Below, piece after piece: positions 34,193 to 58,350 of a DNA stretch of 64,000 nucleotides; the first letter of the stretch is position 1, and each line of letters starts with the position of its first letter. Under the pieces are notes generated by a model. That model did no database searches. It was not told the DNA's origin and worked only from the letters and a program-made list of their open reading frames with translations. Origin of the DNA: Phascolarctobacterium sp. GTDB taxonomy: Bacteria > Bacillota > Negativicutes > Acidaminococcales > Acidaminococcaceae. The position numbers and the translations under genes are program-made. The stretch lies in assembly GCF_030531065.1 (NCBI RefSeq), contig NZ_JAUNOQ010000005.1, positions 62,001 to 126,000 of the forward strand, written 5' to 3'.

Positions 34193-37144
34193 TTAGAAAC
34201 TCCAGCGCACGCCAGCGTTCCATTGCCACGGCGTTGCCACATTGCCGCCGTAGGTTTTTTCTATATCAAAATACAAGTGCGCCGCTTCGCTGAAGTTGAT
34301 GTTCGTACCGACGCCGACCTCCCACCAGCCGCCGCCGAGGTCTTGCTCAAAGCGTTTGTTCTGTATGCCATAGCTGTAACGCACGTCCGTCTCGCCGTCG
34401 AAATCGTACAGGTACGACGCGCGCAGGTACACGTTGCCCTTGCCTTGCGCCAAATTTTTGCCTAAAGCGAAGCCCAATCGGCCTACCACGCTGTCCATGC
34501 CCTCCTGCCGCACTCTGACGCCGTTATTCGTAAGATACTCGCCGCTGCTTACTCTGCCGTAAGTCAGCTCTACCTGCGGCTCAATCCACAAGCCGCTCTT
34601 TTGCGTAAAGCGTTTGCCGTATTCCGCGCTCAGGCTGTAGCCGTTGGTGTCGAAGTCGCCTTTGCCCGCGCCGCCGTATACTTCATAGTCATGCTCCAGA
34701 CGCGCATAACGGGCAATCAAATCGATAAAGCTGCCGTCGTCGTTCAAACGGCTGCCGTAAAGAGCCAGACCCTTGTGCTTATTTTCGCCCTTGCCGTAAC
34801 TAAAGCTGCTTTCTGCGTCCGTATAGGTCAGCGCTGCGCCTACGGTCCAGTGCTTATCAACGCTCAATTTTTCATCGTAGCCCAGCTGGTAAGCGTTGTA
34901 CTGGTTCTTGATATTCTGGTTGCCGTACTTAGCTTCGCCGCGCGTCATGCGCACCCACACGCCGTGCTCGCCTGCGCTGTCGCGCAGTTCGCCCAAGCGC
35001 TTATTCATATCGTTGTTTTCCTGCCGCCAGGTCATGAGCGCGATGCTGGCCATCTCGCTGATGCCCTGGTTGAAATTATTAACGCCCTCTTTTACGCTGG
35101 CAGTAATAATATGGTTAGCACCGTCGGTTTCGCCGTACAAATCACCCAAAATTTTACCGGCAGGCGCAATAACGGTTTTGCGCTGGCCGTTCTGCGTGCT
35201 GTTCACAGATGCCGTATAAGCCAAGGCCTGCAAGCCTGCTTCCACATTATCAACCTCAAAGGTGTCCGTCAGCTGGCTGTCGCCGGTAACGGTCACGCCG
35301 CTGCCGTTCATTGTGTCAATAACCACCTGCTCCGGCGTCAACGAAGTTACATTGATTTTTAAATCATTACCGGTAAATTGGGCAACGTCAATCTGTCTTT
35401 CCTTGTTGGATTGTAAGTCAAAGGTCAGGCCTTCGCCGTTCATTTTATCAGCGGTCAAAGAACCGCCGTTGCTGACTACCGCACCGCCTTCGGCCATAGC
35501 CAGGGAAGCAGCGTCAAAGACAGCAGCTGCACCTAAAGCGACAGCTTCCGTACCGCTGACATCTTTTGCCGTAAAGCTTGCGGTGTTGTCTAAAGTAATG
35601 GTTTCTTCAACGGTGACTTCACTATTGGCAGCATAAAAGGTGGCTTTTTCTCCCACGCCGACACTGGTAAATTCATACTTGCTGCCGTTCAAAGTAAAAC
35701 TGCCTTCATCAAGAATGTTGAGATTATCAACGTCGAAAGTTTTAACTCCCTCAATCGCACTATTATCTTCACCATTGGCCACATCTAAAGTTTTAACAGC
35801 AATAATACTTTCGTTATTCAATGTGCCTTCGATAGTTAATTTTTCTATCTTTTCAATACTGCCATCCTCTTTTACGCTTTTAGCAATAATACCAAAAAAT
35901 TGATAATCATCATAGGCAAGGACGTAATTCGTTATGGAGCCTTGTCCTTTAATTAAAGCATTATCGTTGTCAAGCAAAATATTACCTAGATTTTCAAGAG
36001 TAGCATCAGACTCTAAAGTCAGTGTGTCATGCACTATTAAATTGCCTGAATTCCCAGAAAGAATCTCATCCCCAGACTCGTCAATTCCACCTTTCTTAAT
36101 TATCAAATTGTTAGTTTCAAGAACATTTGTATTAGTTATACTGTCTGCTGATATTTGATCATTTACAATCAAATTTATATCATTCTCTAATTGACCAGAA
36201 ATTATGTTAAGCTGTTTTAAATTATCTGTTTCATTTGTTTTGAGAGTTGTATTTTCAGATAAACGAACTCCGAAAGATTCAATATTAAGAATTCCTGTAG
36301 CTGCATAAATTGTAGAACCTCTACTGTCAAATGGATTTGATCTGTCATTATTATTGCTTTTTATAGTTGCATTATTTCCAACATATAAAGTAGAATTATA
36401 TAGACTAAACAAACCCGCTTCTAAATTACCATCTAGATGAAATTCACTATTGGCATTAGAAAAGCTAAATCCTTTTAAAGCAACTCCTTCCTTAACTTTT
36501 ATAATAGCATTACTATTACTTACTGGTTTTCCGAATATAGTGTTTGCATTTACATTAGTAACAGCACCATTCACATTAACAAAGAAACTACGAATAGCAC
36601 CATCGTCATTCTCTGCCACCAAAATTTCTGAATCAACGCCATTCAAATTTAATACGGCTTTATCGGTATTGATTACACTTCCCCAAAGAGTTCCGTCACT
36701 AATGCTACCTGTTAATGTAATCTCTGCATTCTCACCTGAATTACACAAAACAGCGTAACGTCCAGGAAAATTATCCGGCTTTTGTGAAGTTAATTTTATA
36801 TCTTCTACTTCCAGTTTTCCTGTATTATAAATTGCTGTTGCTTCTAGTTTTAGAACATTATTTATTGAGCCATTATTTACAATACCAAAAGGTATTGCAC
36901 TTTCTTGTTCAAATATATTAGTAGACAATTTAACATTTTTAGTTTCAGCAGTTCCAGTAACAACTAAATTATTTCCATCGCCATTCAACGTAACTCCACT
37001 ATTCACAACTAAGCCATCACTATAAGATTCTGCCCCAGTTAAAGTATAATCATTATTCAAAGCTTCCGCTGCCCATGCGCTGCACGGCATCGCCAGCAGC
37101 AAGCCCAAAGTAATCGCTTTCGCTAAAATTTGTTTCCGTTGCAT
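34193..37144 (-). CDS. Autotransporter with C-terminal beta-barrel (type Va)
   Basis: A 983-residue surface protein. A signal peptide (LAKAITLGLLLAMPCSAWAA, residues 8-27) precedes a repetitive beta-helix-type passenger rich in Asn, Thr and Leu (about 30-690). A C-terminal autotransporter barrel of roughly 270 residues follows: HGVWVRMTRGEAKYGNQNIK, YQLGYDEKL, TDAESSFSYGKGENKHKGLA, SAEYGKRF, and the end WNAGVRWSF. The terminal Phe is the usual signal for the barrel assembly machinery, so an outer membrane is implied. No known enzymatic motif is seen in the passenger; adhesion is a guess. The N-terminal two fifths of the coding sequence is much richer in A and T than the barrel part. The gene has a leader of about 245 bases containing a dispersed repeat and a promoter with a G tract. 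Confidence 0.92.
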   Translation of the reverse strand: MQRKQILAKAITLGLLLAMPCSAWAAEALNNDYTLTGAESYSDGLVVNSGVTLNGDGNNLVVTGTAETKNVKLSTNIFEQESAIPFGIVNNGSINNVLKLEATAIYNTGKLEVEDIKLTSQKPDNFPGRYAVLCNSGENAEITLTGSISDGTLWGSVINTDKAVLNLNGVDSEILVAENDDGAIRSFFVNVNGAVTNVNANTIFGKPVSNSNAIIKVKEGVALKGFSFSNANSEFHLDGNLEAGLFSLYNSTLYVGNNATIKSNNNDRSNPFDSRGSTIYAATGILNIESFGVRLSENTTLKTNETDNLKQLNIISGQLENDINLIVNDQISADSITNTNVLETNNLIIKKGGIDESGDEILSGNSGNLIVHDTLTLESDATLENLGNILLDNDNALIKGQGSITNYVLAYDDYQFFGIIAKSVKEDGSIEKIEKLTIEGTLNNESIIAVKTLDVANGEDNSAIEGVKTFDVDNLNILDEGSFTLNGSKYEFTSVGVGEKATFYAANSEVTVEETITLDNTASFTAKDVSGTEAVALGAAAVFDAASLAMAEGGAVVSNGGSLTADKMNGEGLTFDLQSNKERQIDVAQFTGNDLKINVTSLTPEQVVIDTMNGSGVTVTGDSQLTDTFEVDNVEAGLQALAYTASVNSTQNGQRKTVIAPAGKILGDLYGETDGANHIITASVKEGVNNFNQGISEMASIALMTWRQENNDMNKRLGELRDSAGEHGVWVRMTRGEAKYGNQNIKNQYNAYQLGYDEKLSVDKHWTVGAALTYTDAESSFSYGKGENKHKGLALYGSRLNDDGSFIDLIARYARLEHDYEVYGGAGKGDFDTNGYSLSAEYGKRFTQKSGLWIEPQVELTYGRVSSGEYLTNNGVRVRQEGMDSVVGRLGFALGKNLAQGKGNVYLRASYLYDFDGETDVRYSYGIQNKRFEQDLGGGWWEVGVGTNINFSEAAHLYFDIEKTYGGNVATPWQWNAGVRWSF

Positions 37145-37395: not shown

Positions 37396-37424
37396 ATTGT
37401 ATCATACTTGTACCCCCCCACAAG
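37396..37424 (-). promoter_or_regulatory. Autotransporter promoter with G7 tract in the spacer
   Basis: Minus strand: -35 TTGTGG (37418-37423), a run of seven G (37413-37419) that overlaps it, then an extended -10 TGATACAAT (TACAAT at 37396-37401). The spacer is 16 bases with this reading. The next minus-strand gene is the autotransporter. Homopolymer length would set the spacer length and so promoter strength. Confidence 0.6.
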
Positions 37425-49825: not shown

Positions 49826-50142
<317 letters not shown>

Positions 50143-50165
50143 CAACGCAATCGATTCGTAAACGT

Positions 50166-51183: not shown

Positions 51184-54100
51184 TTATTTTTCCTTTTGCG
51201 CTGCCAGCTTTAATTCTTCGGCTTTATTCACTTTAGCCTGGTCGACGGGTTGTTTCTTACGCCCGAATTTCCAGGTAGCGCCGATGCCGCCCATCACCTC
51301 GTCGCCGCTGGTGGATACGGACAGGCTCAGCATAAAGTCGCGGTTAGGATAATGGAAGAGGCCCAAAGCCACGCCGGTATCGCTTCTATACTGGCCGATG
51401 CCAATAGCGAATTCCGTCGGCGCTGTCGGGTCGTAGCCCATGGTGCGCAGGTTAGCGATAGCCGCGGCCATAGCGCCCACTTTATCGATGCGATCGTCCA
51501 GCTTATCGACGCGACGGTTCAAATCGGCTACCTCGCCCTCCAGATTCGTTACCCTGTTTTCGGTAGTAGCCAGGCTTACTTCGCTTTCCGTACCTTGGTT
51601 AATCACTACGTCCTGACCGGTAATAACGGCGGAATATTCGGTTCCGTCCTCGCCCGTGGTAGTTATTACATGACCGGTTGCGCTTTGCTCGAAGGTGCTG
51701 CTGTTCGTACCGTCGCTTATCTTCGTTACCGATCCGGTAGCAGTCTGGCTGCTGCTGTAAGTATTCGTGCCGTCGCTGATGCTGTTCGAAGTTTCCGTTG
51801 CGCTTTGCGTCAGCGTGTTGGTATTAGTGCCGTCGCTTACGCTGCTAGTCGTATTCGTAGCAGTCTGCGTCAGCGTATTAGTATTCGTGCCGTCGCTTAT
51901 ACCGCTTATGGTGCTGTCGACAGTTTGCGTAAAGCTGTTTTCCTTATCGCCCTCGATTACGGAACCGGTAATGCTAGTTGCCGTTTGCTCGCGCAGGCTG
52001 GAGCTGCTACCGTCGGTCATGGAAACAGAATTTTCCTTTGCACTGTTAGTAACATTGCTGGTATAAGTAACATCATTTTCAGTACTTTGAGCGTTGCTTA
52101 CATAACCGTCGGCGTTCGCAGTAAATTCAAAGCTGCTTGATACTACGCCGTCAACATTTTTCTCAAAGTGCCCCTGCTGCGCGTCGGCGTCGCTGACAAC
52201 TCCGCTGCCGTCTATCACGCTGCTGCCGCTGCCGGAAGCTCCCGGAACCATATTGCCGATTTCGCTTCTGTCGGCGTTGATAACGCCGCCGTTGATATTG
52301 GTAGTGCCATTAACTTCGCCGTTAGTGAAGGTTGTACCGTTACTGTCGACCGTCAGCATACTGTCGCCACTGGCAATAGTAGTGCTACCGGTATCGCCGT
52401 CATAGCTGATGCCCTGCGTCCTGTAATCCAGCTCTTCTACCTTATCCACCAATGTTTGCAGGGTTAAGCTGCCAGTAGAATCGACAAGAGAAATGCGCCC
52501 TACGCCGTCGTTATGATTGCTGGTGTTATGCGTAAAGCTGATTAATGAATCGTCTGCTCCCAAATTCAAAGCGCCGCTGAAATCATATCCCGCTTCAGTC
52601 AATGTTAATTTAGCGCTGTTGGTGTAGCCCAAGCTAAATCCGTTTGCCGCGTCCATATCCAGCTCATAGCTGCCGTAATGCGTACTGAACTTTTCCGTAG
52701 TCGCTTCAAAAGTAGTAACACCTTTGCTGTCAACCAGTTTAACGGAACCGTCCGCGCCGATATTCAAATTGCCGACGTCATTACCATCCTCATCAGTAAT
52801 CTTATCGCCTAAAACTATTTTGTCTACGTTCAGCGTATCGGTAGTAATGCTGTCGCCGGTAATAGTAGTCGTACCGGTAGTAATCTTGCCGCCGTTAATT
52901 GTAGTAAAGCCGTTAGCATCACTTATCTTAACGCCGTCTTGGGAAATGGCGGTGTTGCCTTCGATAGTAGTCACGTAACCGCTTTCTTCGTCGCCGGTGC
53001 GAACAATACCCGCAGTATTCGTCTCTATAGCAGTGAGATTGATACCGCCGACCAGAATATTTGCATCGTCATCTTTTGCAAGCGTTACATCGTTGTAAGT
53101 AGCGGCATTAACATAACCTACAGCTTCAATGCCTGCGGAAGAAATTGTCATTTCGCCATTTTCAGATGCGCTGTTGACAGTCAGCACGCCGTTTTCTATG
53201 CGCACGTTTTCTCCGGTCAAAGCGCCGAAGCGGGCAGTACCGTCGTTGTTAATTAAAACGGTGTTGACGCTGCTGTCACCGTCTGGTTTATTCAAGCGGA
53301 ACGCTTCGCTGCTCAAAGAAGCTTTGCCGTTTTCATTTTCCGTAATGAAAGTGCCTGCAATGCTGGCGTTGCCCTCCGCTTTAATGTTACCTGCCAAGGT
53401 CATATTGCCCTCGCGGCTGATGGTAGCTACCTTCGTCTGCTCCTCGTCAGTTCCCAAAACGTAGAAGCCGCTCTTATTGTTAACGCCTACCGCGCCTTCG
53501 ATTTCCGTGGTGCTGAACTCGCCGGAAGTACGGCGCACAAGGCCGGCGGTTTTTTGCTGCAATTCGTTGATATCCGTACCGGCTTGCGTTACGTCGCTTT
53601 GCATTTGCGTAATATCCACGCCGCCAATTTCCACATTATCGCTGGTACTATTCTTTTGAATGGTCACGTCGTTCACGCTATCTGCGGTAATCGCCTTCGC
53701 GGTAACGTTGCCGTCCTGCAAAGTCACGCCTGCGATTTGCAAGCCTGCGGCGCTGCCATCCGTTTCTGTAGCCGCTACTGCCGCCACAGCCGCGCCGTTG
53801 ATGCTGGTTACGTTAGCCAAAGTACCTTCGCCCGTCACCATGCCGTTGATATAGCCCAGCTGCTCGTCAGTCAAAGCGTTAGCGCCTAAATTCAGTTCGC
53901 CGTTTTCCAACGAAGTGGTAATAGTAGAACCGTTTTTAATGTAAACGCCCTCGTCCTTAACTACAGTATTAGCGCCGCTAGTATCGCCGAAAGTTCCCCT
54001 GTAGACGCTCATACTGATATTGCCTTCGCTATCGCTCCAAGCAAAATTCTTATCGCCAATCTGATATACGTCAGATTTTACTCTTACCTTGCCGTTCGTA

Positions 54101-56310
54101 TCAGTCCAAGCCAAATTTTCGCCGTTAATTTTGTATACGTCGGCATTTACTCTTACTTTATCGCTTACCTGGATAACATTTTCGCCGCCAACGGCTAAAG
54201 TATCAGAAGTAAGTTTAGAAATGATTTTATTTCCGTCTTTAACATAATATCCGTCGGCTTTAGTTTTAGTGCTAACGGTAGAATCTTCGGCGCTGATTAC
54301 CATGCCGTCGCCGGAAATCGCCGTATTACCTTCGATAGTAGTGGTGTAGCCGCTTGTATCATCGCCGGTGCGAACAATGCCTGCGGTATTGGTATTCAAG
54401 GTTTCCACACCGCTAAGCAAATCGGTAACATTGCTGTTCATCGTCGTAATATCCACGCCGCCGACAGAAACTTTTTCTTCGTCGCCCTCTCCGGTTGCGC
54501 TAATCTCTACGCCGTTGTAGCTGGCTGCGGTAATACTGCCTGTTACATCCAGCTTACCTTTAGTTGCAATATCGCCGGTCGCAGTATCGACAGTGAAAGT
54601 TTCGCTACCTGTTTCGCCGAGTTTAAAGCCGTCGCTTTCAAGATAAACGTTATCGACGTCCAAACCGCTAACGATTAATTCGCCGTCTTCGTTAGTTGCA
54701 AGCGTAGTACCGCCAATCGTCAAGCCTTCTTCGTCCCATTTATTATCTTCGTCCAGCGTTAAGGAATTAGTGGTTATGCTGCCGCCCGCAATCGTCGTCT
54801 CATCGTTAGTGGCGCTCTTGAAGGACGCCGTGCCGCCGGTAATAGAAGTAACGTTATTCCTTGCGCTGGTGAAGGTAGCGCTGCCGCCGTCGATAACGCT
54901 CTGATTAGCCGTACTGCCGCCGAAGGTGGCCTTCTGTCCGTCTATTATGGAATAATTACGCGTATTATCAGAAGTATCTCCGGTGAACTTCGTGCCCGAA
55001 GCGTTCGTAGCCACTATATGCTTAACGCCGTTGCTGTCGGTAAAGGTGTCGGTAATGCCGTTCTTATCAAGACTGGTCTTGATAGTAGCGTTGCTCTCGC
55101 CCAACTTTACTTCATCGGTAATCGCCGTAGCCGTGCTCTTGCTAGTCGCGGTAGCCGTTCCGTTAGTAATGGTGTCGGTAATAGCGCTGGAAGAAGTAGA
55201 GCTTGTTGCCGTGCCGCTACCCTCTTTTGCGGCAGTTATCGTAGTAGCAGTAGCGCTGCTGCTCAAGTTTTTGCTGGTTACGTTAAGTAATGCGTTCTGA
55301 TTATCGCTATCCTTAGCTGTAATAGTAATAGCGCCGGTAGAATTGTTAATGCCTACGGAAGATTTGCCGGATTTCAGCGTAGCGCTGGTCTGGTTCAAGC
55401 TTAATTGCGATTTGACTGTTTTACCGTCGGTATCGTAAACAGTATTAGTAATGGCAGTTTTACCAATGCTGCTCACTGCAGCATTAACAAATTTACTATT
55501 ATCTGAATCCCATTGCTGTACGCTGTTGCTGATAGAAGCAGAACTTACGGAAGAACTTGCCTTAGAGCTTTCGTCAGTCGTCGCGGTAATCGTCGAACCG
55601 CCATTAGCAGTCAGTTTGCCAGAGGCTGTTACTGCACCTGCAGTAGTAGCATTAAATACCGTTGCCCCCTCGCTATCTTTTATCGTAATAGCGCCGTTAT
55701 TGGACGTAAAGCCTTTTGCTGTTACAGCGCCGGTAGCAGCGACATTAAAATTCGTGCCTGCAATCGTAATTACGCCCTGGTCGTTGACAGTAAAACCTTT
55801 TTGTCCGGATTTTAAGCTGGCGCTGGTCTGGTTCAAAGTAATTGTGGAATTGGCATTTTCCCCCACTACCGTACCGGTAATAGAAGTCCTGTTCAAAGCC
55901 AGCTTCGAAGCCATGGTTCCCTCAGCGTCATATACGGTATCAGTAATCGTAGTGCCGTTAATAACGTTGCTCGTACCGTTAACAAAGGCATCAGTACTAT
56001 AGTTTTTCACCGTGTTGCTGATTTGGTTTGCGCTCACAGTAGAAGTAGCCTGATATTTTTCAGCAGTCGTCGCCGTGATTGCCGACCCGCCATTGGATGT
56101 CAGCTTGCTTTGCGAAGTAATAGTGTCAAGCGCAGTTAAATTATTTTTGCTCAACGTCACGCCGTTAATGGTGACGCTCGTCGCGGCTGTAATAGGTTCA
56201 CCGTCAATAGTCAAACCTTCTTGCGCCGCCATAACCGGAGCAGCATAAAATGCCGCCATTGTCGTAGCCGCTAAAGCCGCGGCAAAAAATTTGGAACGCG
56301 TTTTCTTCAT
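51184..56310 (-). CDS. Trimeric autotransporter adhesin (type Vc, YadA-like)
   Basis: A 1,708-residue surface protein. Signal peptide MKKTRSKFFAAALAATTMAA, cut near VMAA. A very long passenger rich in Thr, Ser, Asn and Asp is built of degenerate repeats: ITNTVYD/ITDTVYD with SQLSLNQTSATLKSG; GIVRTGDDTSGYTTTIEGNT (three variants); and, near the C terminus, several units of SISDGTNTNTLTQTAT. A coiled-coil neck (EVADLNRRVDKLDDRIDKVG) leads to the YadA anchor: AMAAAIANLRTMGYDPTAPT, EFAIGIGQYRSDTGVALGLF, FMLSLSVSTSGDEVMGGIGA and WKF. A charged tail of about 25 residues follows WKF, which is unusual. The ATG at 56310 follows AAAGGTGATA; the open frame above it does not look like a signal extension. 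Three chains should make one 12-strand barrel. Confidence 0.94.
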   Translation of the reverse strand: MKKTRSKFFAAALAATTMAAFYAAPVMAAQEGLTIDGEPITAATSVTINGVTLSKNNLTALDTITSQSKLTSNGGSAITATTAEKYQATSTVSANQISNTVKNYSTDAFVNGTSNVINGTTITDTVYDAEGTMASKLALNRTSITGTVVGENANSTITLNQTSASLKSGQKGFTVNDQGVITIAGTNFNVAATGAVTAKGFTSNNGAITIKDSEGATVFNATTAGAVTASGKLTANGGSTITATTDESSKASSSVSSASISNSVQQWDSDNSKFVNAAVSSIGKTAITNTVYDTDGKTVKSQLSLNQTSATLKSGKSSVGINNSTGAITITAKDSDNQNALLNVTSKNLSSSATATTITAAKEGSGTATSSTSSSAITDTITNGTATATSKSTATAITDEVKLGESNATIKTSLDKNGITDTFTDSNGVKHIVATNASGTKFTGDTSDNTRNYSIIDGQKATFGGSTANQSVIDGGSATFTSARNNVTSITGGTASFKSATNDETTIAGGSITTNSLTLDEDNKWDEEGLTIGGTTLATNEDGELIVSGLDVDNVYLESDGFKLGETGSETFTVDTATGDIATKGKLDVTGSITAASYNGVEISATGEGDEEKVSVGGVDITTMNSNVTDLLSGVETLNTNTAGIVRTGDDTSGYTTTIEGNTAISGDGMVISAEDSTVSTKTKADGYYVKDGNKIISKLTSDTLAVGGENVIQVSDKVRVNADVYKINGENLAWTDTNGKVRVKSDVYQIGDKNFAWSDSEGNISMSVYRGTFGDTSGANTVVKDEGVYIKNGSTITTSLENGELNLGANALTDEQLGYINGMVTGEGTLANVTSINGAAVAAVAATETDGSAAGLQIAGVTLQDGNVTAKAITADSVNDVTIQKNSTSDNVEIGGVDITQMQSDVTQAGTDINELQQKTAGLVRRTSGEFSTTEIEGAVGVNNKSGFYVLGTDEEQTKVATISREGNMTLAGNIKAEGNASIAGTFITENENGKASLSSEAFRLNKPDGDSSVNTVLINNDGTARFGALTGENVRIENGVLTVNSASENGEMTISSAGIEAVGYVNAATYNDVTLAKDDDANILVGGINLTAIETNTAGIVRTGDEESGYVTTIEGNTAISQDGVKISDANGFTTINGGKITTGTTTITGDSITTDTLNVDKIVLGDKITDEDGNDVGNLNIGADGSVKLVDSKGVTTFEATTEKFSTHYGSYELDMDAANGFSLGYTNSAKLTLTEAGYDFSGALNLGADDSLISFTHNTSNHNDGVGRISLVDSTGSLTLQTLVDKVEELDYRTQGISYDGDTGSTTIASGDSMLTVDSNGTTFTNGEVNGTTNINGGVINADRSEIGNMVPGASGSGSSVIDGSGVVSDADAQQGHFEKNVDGVVSSSFEFTANADGYVSNAQSTENDVTYTSNVTNSAKENSVSMTDGSSSSLREQTATSITGSVIEGDKENSFTQTVDSTISGISDGTNTNTLTQTATNTTSSVSDGTNTNTLTQSATETSNSISDGTNTYSSSQTATGSVTKISDGTNSSTFEQSATGHVITTTGEDGTEYSAVITGQDVVINQGTESEVSLATTENRVTNLEGEVADLNRRVDKLDDRIDKVGAMAAAIANLRTMGYDPTAPTEFAIGIGQYRSDTGVALGLFHYPNRDFMLSLSVSTSGDEVMGGIGATWKFGRKKQPVDQAKVNKAEELKLAAQKEK

Positions 56311-56463
56311 ATTGGATATCACCTTTCCTTTGCAAATACAGCGACCGCCGCGCGAAATAATAATACAGTTGGAACTCTCCGGCTTACTGCCGGGCAAAAT
56401 ACGGCGCGCTGCGCTATCGCTATAAATATTTAAGAGTAAAAGCGGCAACGCCGCCTACTGCTA
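56311..56463 (-). other. Leader of the adhesin mRNA
   Basis: About 150 bases between the G-tract promoter and the adhesin ATG. The first 25 bases hold GCGGCGTTGCCGC followed by TTTT, a short terminator-like hairpin that could attenuate. A second hairpin CCGGCAGTAAGCCGG spans 56379-56393. It does not match a riboswitch class that I can recognise. Confidence 0.45.
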
Positions 56464-56470
56464 TACTATA

Positions 56471-56499
56471 ATAATAGCACACAATTCCCCCCCCGACAA
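56471..56499 (-). promoter_or_regulatory. Adhesin promoter with G8 tract in the spacer
   Basis: Minus strand: -35 TTGTCG (56494-56499) overlaps the first base of a run of eight G (56487-56494). AATTGTG and an extended -10 TGCTATTAT (TATTAT at 56471-56476) follow. The spacer is exactly 17 bases with the present tract. Loss or gain of a G would make it 16 or 18. Confidence 0.68.
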
Positions 56500-56603
56500 G
56501 CCTTGAGTTCGTAAAAAGCCTAGTTTTTCGAGCTTGTCTCGTTTTTTGTGGCAGGAGGTGCGCCGACTAAAAAGGAAGACGGATTCGCTGACTAAAATAA
56601 CGC

Positions 56604-56633
56604 AAAAAAGCGCCCGCCCCGAAGGGCGGACGC
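56604..56633 (-). terminator. Terminator after the nucleoside kinase gene
   Basis: GCGTCCGCCC and GGGCGGGCGC pair around a TTCG-type loop, followed by TTTTTTGCG on the minus strand, about 50 bases after the stop. It is almost the same as 50166-50194. Between it and the adhesin promoter (56500-56603) nothing else is recognised. Confidence 0.85.
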
Positions 56634-56685
56634 AACGACCGCAGGTAAATATATTATTTTAGCGGCGGTTTGTACCGCGCGCTTA

Positions 56686-58350
56686 TTACAGCGCGTCTTT
56701 AAAAATACTGCCGCCGACAAACTCGCGCAGTATCGAATTATTGGGGATAGCAGTATCGTCGATCTGCTTTACGTAATACAGCATATTCAGCAGGCGGCGC
56801 GCCGTCAGGTAAGCCCTGCCAGCTTGGGGCTGCACCGCTTCCAGCAAGGGCACGGCGTATTTTTTCAATACGGCCAGCTCGTAAATCAGCGTCGTATTAA
56901 AAATCACGTCCGCGCTGCACTGGAACGGAAAAATATATTTTTCCTCGCCCTCGCGCACGTCCTTCCACAGGGCCAGGGTAGCCTCCGCATCGTGAGAACG
57001 GAACTGGCTGTCGCGCACGATGCGCCGCAGCAGGCGCACATCCGTCGTATGGATGCGGTTATAGGCGTCGAAGGACATGGGCGTCAACGCGCTGACATAG
57101 AGCTTCATTTTATTGGCCGCAGGAATGGAAGCCGTCAGTTTTTCGTTCAACCCGTGGATACCTTCCACCACCAGCACCGAATTATCCGTCATTTGCAGCT
57201 CGCTGCCGCGGTACTCGCGGCAGCCCGTGCGAAAATTATACTTAGGCAGCTTAATTTTTTCGCCCGCCAGCAGCTTCTGCAAATGCTCGTTGAACAGCTC
57301 TAAATCGATGGCCTCCAGACATTCGAAATCATAGCTGCCGTCGGCCTTGCGCGGCGTGTCCACCCTGTTCAGGTAATAGTCGTCCATGGATATCGGCATG
57401 GGCCGCAAACCGTTGACAGCCATCTGAATGCTGAGCCGCTGCGCCGTTGACGTTTTGCCGGACGAGGACGGACCCGCAATCAAAATAAGCTTCAGCTCAT
57501 TTTTTCTGGCGGCAATCATATCGGCTATGCCCGCCAGCTTCTTTTCATGCAGCGCTTCGGCCACCTGGATAACCCTGTCGGCGTAACCCATACCAATATA
57601 ATTGTTCAGCTTACCGATGGTATTGCATTGCAGCATAGCGGACCATTCTTCCGCCTCCTGATAAGCGGCGTTAAGCCGCGGCTGGTCCACAAAGGGCGGC
57701 AAATGCGTCCAGTCCCCCGTATCAGGGTAATTGATAATAACGCCGTCGTCGTAAGGCAAGAGTTCAAAGTTCGGCACATAACCGGCATGCGGGCACATCG
57801 CGCCGAAGAAGTAACCCGGCATATCCTGCAAATAATATACCGTCAGCGTAGCGTCGTCCGGCAATTCTTCGAGCAACGCGTCGCTGTCCGGCGTGCGCAA
57901 ACGGCTCGTCTTCCCTATAGCGTCGCTTTTAGCAAAGCGTTTCAGCGTAATCGGCTCTTTAGCCGCCGCCATTTGCTTCATATAAGCTTCAATGGCTTTG
58001 ATATTTTCCGGGGTAAGCTTGATGCTGCTTTTATCCAGGCAGTACAGCGCGCTGCCCAAGGTATTGCGAACCTCCAAATCCACGTCGGGATAAAGCTTGT
58101 AGCACGCCGCCAGCAGCATAAAGAGCAATGTGCGCGTATAAGTGCGCATGCCCTCCGCCGTGTTGACCTCGATAAAATCCACCGTGCCGTCCGTATACAG
58201 TGGCTTTTGCAAGTCCACCGCTTCGCCGTTGAACACGCCTTCTACGATGGGCGATTTAAACTTATCCTGCATGGATAAAGCCAAAGACAAAAGGCAGCTG
58301 CCCTCCTCCACCTGCCGCAGCTGCCCGTCAGGCAGCTTCCAAGCTAACAT
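56686..58350 (-). CDS. Uridine kinase-like nucleoside kinase with ThrRS-type N-terminal domains
   Basis: A 554-residue fusion. The N-terminal 60 residues (LPDGQLRQVEEGSCLLSLAL) resemble a TGS domain. A threonyl-tRNA synthetase second-domain-like region follows (about 60-250, with PGYFFGAMCPHAGYVPNFEL). The C-terminal phosphoribulokinase/uridine kinase domain has Walker A LILIAGPSSSGKTSTAQRLS, SMDDYYLNRVDTP and VVEGIHGLNE. This layout is known from many Firmicutes; the substrate is not settled. The ATG at 58350 lies one base after the aminotransferase stop. Confidence 0.9.
   Translation of the reverse strand: MLAWKLPDGQLRQVEEGSCLLSLALSMQDKFKSPIVEGVFNGEAVDLQKPLYTDGTVDFIEVNTAEGMRTYTRTLLFMLLAACYKLYPDVDLEVRNTLGSALYCLDKSSIKLTPENIKAIEAYMKQMAAAKEPITLKRFAKSDAIGKTSRLRTPDSDALLEELPDDATLTVYYLQDMPGYFFGAMCPHAGYVPNFELLPYDDGVIINYPDTGDWTHLPPFVDQPRLNAAYQEAEEWSAMLQCNTIGKLNNYIGMGYADRVIQVAEALHEKKLAGIADMIAARKNELKLILIAGPSSSGKTSTAQRLSIQMAVNGLRPMPISMDDYYLNRVDTPRKADGSYDFECLEAIDLELFNEHLQKLLAGEKIKLPKYNFRTGCREYRGSELQMTDNSVLVVEGIHGLNEKLTASIPAANKMKLYVSALTPMSFDAYNRIHTTDVRLLRRIVRDSQFRSHDAEATLALWKDVREGEEKYIFPFQCSADVIFNTTLIYELAVLKKYAVPLLEAVQPQAGRAYLTARRLLNMLYYVKQIDDTAIPNNSILREFVGGSIFKDAL

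Follow-up and report, generated by a model that had tools for sequence, protein, structure and literature searches.

In Neisseria meningitidis, the porA promoter carries a poly-G tract that lies wholly between the -35 and -10 elements, and the spacer length, of which 17 is best, sets the expression of an outer-membrane protein. Phase variation in gut commensals has been described mostly as DNA inversion in Bacteroides, where several capsule operons each have a promoter switch of their own. In Treponema pallidum, poly-G promoters precede several outer-membrane genes, that is, tp0126 (an OmpW homologue) and tpr genes; tp0126 does best at 17 nt, a poly-G-set spacing that is required there and in porA (PMC7864442). 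The neisserial opc gene is a weaker analogue, because there the C tract and the -35 region overlap (PMC7864442). Campylobacter has a genome-wide set of poly-G tracts on surface genes, counted from a cut-off of 7 G, of which 82% are in reading frames and which peak at 9-10 G (PMC6321876). In the gut commensal Bifidobacterium breve, a pilus is under the control of poly-G slippage through an intragenic frameshift at G10-G11, in two clusters only (PMC9187656). No report of slippage promoters in Phascolarctobacterium or the Negativicutes was found in the open-access literature.

In this paper we describe a poly-G promoter in front of a trimeric autotransporter adhesin in a window of 64,000 nucleotides, the whole stretch of Phascolarctobacterium sp. 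DNA that was analysed, and compare it with promoters of the same build in the host genome (2,365,984 bases in 27 contigs, Phascolarctobacterium lineage) and in the family Acidaminococcaceae. We read the focal G8 as the part of a slippage-switched promoter that changes in length, and the promoter as a member of a genome-wide, porA-like phasome; we give this reading a probability of about 0.7. In porA a single locus is involved and its tracts are longer; the present diderm Firmicute has about 37 loci, derived from a small number of related promoter cassettes, and their runs comprise 6-8 G. The T. pallidum promoters are fewer and their tracts vary in position, without the uniform spacer placement or the capsule operons seen here, and the tracts described below are mostly in promoter spacers and of 7-8 G, unlike those of Campylobacter. 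As in Bacteroides, each capsule operon would have a switch of its own, but there is no sign of inversion.

Table 1. Features of the focal promoter, its adhesin gene and the second poly-G promoter of the window (positions are those of the window)
Feature	Position	Strand	Basis
-35 hexamer TTGTCG	56494..56499	-	sequence
G8 tract in promoter spacer (C8 on + strand)	56487..56494	-	sequence; one base common to -35
17-bp spacer, including 7 of the 8 G and the TG of the extended -10	56477..56493	-	sequence
-10 hexamer TATTAT, with TG in extended position (TGC)	56471..56476	-	sequence
Inverted repeat, right arm GCTTGTC, overlapping the -35	56495..56501	-	inverted-repeat analysis
Inverted repeat, left arm GACAAGC; 30 nt separate the arms	56532..56538	-	inverted-repeat analysis
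Terminator-like hairpin of the upstream kinase transcript, then T6	56610..56633	-	promoter-region scan
RBS-like AGGAAAGGTGA	56319..56329	-	sequence
Trimeric autotransporter adhesin, 1708 aa, signal peptide, YadA_anchor at residues 1626-1682 (C-terminus)	51184..56310	-	
Second poly-G promoter, TTGTG-G7-TACAAGTATGATACAAT, spacer 16, tract 37413-37419	37396..37423	-	
Autotransporter, 983 aa, Autotransporter beta-domain (E=8e-41), behind the second promoter	34193..37144	-	

The minus strand reads TTGTCGGGGGGGGAATTGTGTGCTATTAT from 56499 to 56471, in the order TTGTCG, GGGGGGG, AATTGTG, TGC, TATTAT, and the G8 occupies the first half of the spacer (Table 1). The homopolymer is thus nearly wholly between the -35 and the -10, as in porA, and the gene behind it encodes a surface-exposed product, an adhesin with a YadA anchor and a signal peptide. 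The original prediction, which had given TTGTCG, a G8 sharing one base with it and a spacer of exactly 17 on the minus strand, is exact by sequence. Its interpretation is supported in part. The analogy with porA and opc holds for the porA-type anatomy, which is here widened to a genome-wide class, and less well for opc with its overlapping C tract; the adhesin that it called giant and trimeric is indeed a trimeric autotransporter, though 'giant' is generous at 1708 aa. It treated the site as the switch of a single gene; the focal site is one of about 37 promoters of the same build.

The adhesin ATG is at 56310 and the leader from the focal promoter is approximately 150 nt. A promoter scan of 56200-56800 found the focal site as the sole sigma-70-like match, and since shuffles gave a mean of 0.7 the hexamers alone are not significant; it is the genome-wide recurrence of the same build that raises the promoter above chance. 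The hairpin ahead of it would serve as an insulator against the kinase transcript. Folding of the 5' leader was no better than that of shuffles (z -0.37), and an Rfam search of the leader gave no match near the gathering score. The 411-bp upstream region had no match in 40 related genomes. When the adhesin locus was sought through the neighbouring kinase gene, the nearest named relatives were Phascolarctobacterium MAGs at 78% identity, and the named relatives had neither the adhesin nor a promoter-like G tract there; the locus is therefore accessory, with no orthologue for comparison. Elsewhere in the window (49826-50144), three tandem units of 90 bp (49873-50144) lie behind a tRNA-Ala gene and carry its 3' end together with a terminator-like sequence.

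The pattern TTGNNN-G7-N(5-14)-TANNNT gave 22 matches in the host genome, compared with 0 for the reversed-pattern control. Approximately 56 tracts of at least seven G are present in this genome, and 36 of them (about two thirds) stand directly behind a -35, in a promoter spacer; one further promoter with G6 brings the class to about 37, with runs of 6-8 G. One sub-class has TTGACN adjoining a terminator-like hairpin (13 matches to a 76-nt cassette query), another has CTTGTC or CTTGCC with an upstream inverted repeat and includes the focal promoter, and a further one is built as TTGYG-G7-TAC. A stricter pattern was matched in 23 of 51 genomes, with about 120 promoters in total, about 100 of them outside the host genome, and its reversed control gave 2 matches over the family genomes. 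The class is present in other genera of the Acidaminococcaceae. Viral contigs scanned with the cassette for near-identical copies gave 30 chance matches and no G6+ tract behind TTGACN.

The inverted repeat of the second sub-class has the form xxCAAGC...GCTTGxx, with arms about 37 bp apart and the right arm overlapping the -35. It is found at the focal promoter (56495-56538) and at loci L003, L006, L011, L019, L087, L101, L119 and L052, and its outer bases co-vary between copies; a score of at least 8 was reached by 13 of 64 promoters and by 0.9% of shuffles.

To assign targets, approximately 6.7 kb downstream of each poly-G promoter was taken and Pfam was run on it. The targets in the host genome include 14 autotransporters, 4 trimeric autotransporters (the focal adhesin among them), 2 SLH porins (their leader recurs at another promoter, which lies at the end of a contig), and one each of a TonB receptor, a ShlB/TpsB transporter and a sulfatase-type membrane enzyme. 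Six are Bac_transf sugar transferases, each the first gene of a polysaccharide operon containing glycosyltransferases, UDP-galactopyranose mutase or ABC-2 exporters, and one is the methyltransferase of a type III Mod-Res operon, with the Res subunit after it. The few others are a dynamin-like GTPase, a GNAT acetyltransferase and lipoprotein-like proteins. For comparison, twenty ordinary TTGAC...TATAAT promoters with a spacer of 16-17 were taken and their targets assigned by eye from sequence; these were housekeeping genes only (AlaRS, IleRS, LexA, BioB, SerC, CysK, DapB and similar). Pfam-confirmed envelope genes follow 28 of 37 poly-G promoters vs 0 of 19 ordinary ones (Fisher p = 3e-8). The poly-G promoters of two other genera likewise precede autotransporters, a YadA-type adhesin, TpsB, a sugar transferase, and CapD-type and GT8 genes. 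Many tracts of at least seven G thus cluster at genes for the surface, polysaccharides and DNA modification, as expected of an SSR phasome.

Several of these loci have features of their own. The sugar transferases that lead operons L256, L259, L266, L274, L281 and L282 are near-identical and of WbaP type, and all six promoters are at present G7 with a spacer of 16. The Mod-Res operon (L271, host genome C4:168263-175263) has a G7 promoter and is a candidate phasevarion. Thirteen OmpM-type SLH-porin paralogues are present in the host genome (L202 and other ompM loci), only some of them with a poly-G promoter.

Among 136 promoters, the tract was 7 (n=96), 8 (n=28), 6 (n=5), 9 (n=6) or 10 (n=1) bases long, and the spacer 16 (107), 17 (17), 18 (4), 15 (4) or 19 (2), with 2 others. 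The first G of the tract falls within the last two bases of the -35 hexamer or directly follows it, and a post-tract segment of 9-11 bases offsets these shifts. Spacer length and not G7 is the conserved quantity, since G8 and G9 also occur with a spacer of 16, the remainder of the spacer being shorter. When promoters were grouped by identical flanks, 7 of 23 groups varied and 16 were invariant, and the variation was confined to tract length; six of the varying groups alternate between spacers of 16 and 17 and one between 16 and 18. Such variation with unchanged flanks is seen both between paralogues and between species. In an orthologue pair from g17, 97% identical over 220 bp, the only indel is G7 vs G8, and a pair from g2, 96% identical over 220 bp, has G9 vs G7 and no other indel. 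The 12-fold excess among aligned pairs is biased, because the pairs were partly picked for differing tracts, a selection of which the count of 7 in 23 groups is free.

In the host genome, spacers of 16 and 17 are used by 30 and 6 poly-G promoters, compared with 4 and 31 of the 35 ordinary promoters with TTGAC or TGn (p = 6e-10). The original prediction that the focal gene should be ON at 17 fits, because 17 is what the ordinary promoters of this genome use. The six poly-G promoters at 17 drive two trimeric autotransporters, of which the focal adhesin is one, as well as two autotransporters, the TonB receptor and the acetyltransferase; these promoters would be in the strong state and the remaining poly-G promoters weaker, and the present G8/17 state of the focal promoter is probably the strong one.

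G tracts are also found in coding sequence. The longest in the host genome, C10 and C9, are inside intact acyltransferase genes (L090, L114), and three genes, two acyltransferases and a YrbL gene (L097, L110, L116), are split exactly at a G8, past which the profile resumes in another frame in two of the three. Tract-bearing acyltransferase, HsdS and YrbL genes are classical contingency genes. The splits may be taken, from the assembled sequence, as an independent sign of poly-G slippage in this organism. An HsdS specificity subunit (L120, host genome C26) has an in-frame G7 in the linker joining its two recognition domains.

In the proposed mechanism, the gain or loss of one G would alter the focal -35/-10 spacer, which is 17 now and would be 16 with G7, and the altered spacer would alter transcription of the adhesin. 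About 37 promoters would in this way jointly randomise adhesins, porins, polysaccharide operons and the type III methyltransferase. We infer that slippage is the cause of the length differences, that switching takes place in the population, and that expression differs between 16 and 17. Several observations speak against a phasome: 107 of 136 promoters at a spacer of 16, together with 16 of 23 invariant groups, is tighter than free switching predicts; tracts of 7-8 are short beside the 9-10 at which phase-variable tracts of Campylobacter peak (PMC6321876); and the host genome has mutS1. Given the short tracts and mutS1, slippage may be slow and its rates modest.

These same observations lend themselves to another reading, in which the mutable spacer is retuned from one paralogue or species to another, but not often enough to give phase variation inside a host. 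The short tracts, mutS1 and the 16 invariant groups are what such evolutionary tuning would lead one to expect; we nevertheless consider it unlikely, given that three genes in this assembly lose their frame at coding G8 tracts and that orthologues just 3-4% diverged are already 1-2 G apart. Alternatively, a regulator or promoter-specific factor could read TTGnn-G7-(ACAAG) as a fixed element, with the surface genes as one regulon and G6 or G8 as drift. The marked preference for G7 and a spacer of 16, the coherent target set, and the ACAAG that follows the tract in 17 of 37 host copies to give a CTTG...CAAG dyad would all suit such an element. However, the tract offset shifts and the post-tract part compensates, the spacer is held even with G8-G9, ACAAG is rare outside the host genome (7 of 99), with most of genus g2 lacking it, and flank-identical groups change in tract length alone, so that a fixed element too is improbable. 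That the focal promoter is a fortuitous resemblance and transcription of the adhesin begins at another site is very improbable indeed: the hexamers taken by themselves do no better than shuffles, but the same build precedes 36 other genes, the reversed pattern has no matches in the host genome, and both a terminator upstream and an RBS downstream are in place.

Two operator models were also set aside. An operator of the CsoR/RcnR type is expected to have a fixed dyad and fixed spacing around its G tract; here the offset and the post-tract length vary and the ACAAG arm is unconserved. A palindromic operator as a general feature of poly-G promoters was dropped.

Returning to the slippage-switched phasome, it is probable that the bacterium reshuffles its surface at random through gains and losses of single Gs, because nearly all of the approximately 37 poly-G promoters drive adhesins, capsule operons or a DNA-modification operon. 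For the family as a whole, we see an even chance that in the Acidaminococcaceae adhesins, porins, a type III methyltransferase and polysaccharide operons that compete with one another are all under a standard two-state 16/17 poly-G-spacer switch, which would be the first promoter-borne phasome of this kind in diderm Firmicutes. If so, Phascolarctobacterium-like bacteria would need no dedicated recombinases to change their adhesins, their DNA methylation and six polysaccharide operons, and genome surveys restricted to longer or intragenic repeats would overlook such promoter-borne phasomes. A poly-G phasome of this kind would concern abundant diderm Firmicutes of the gut.
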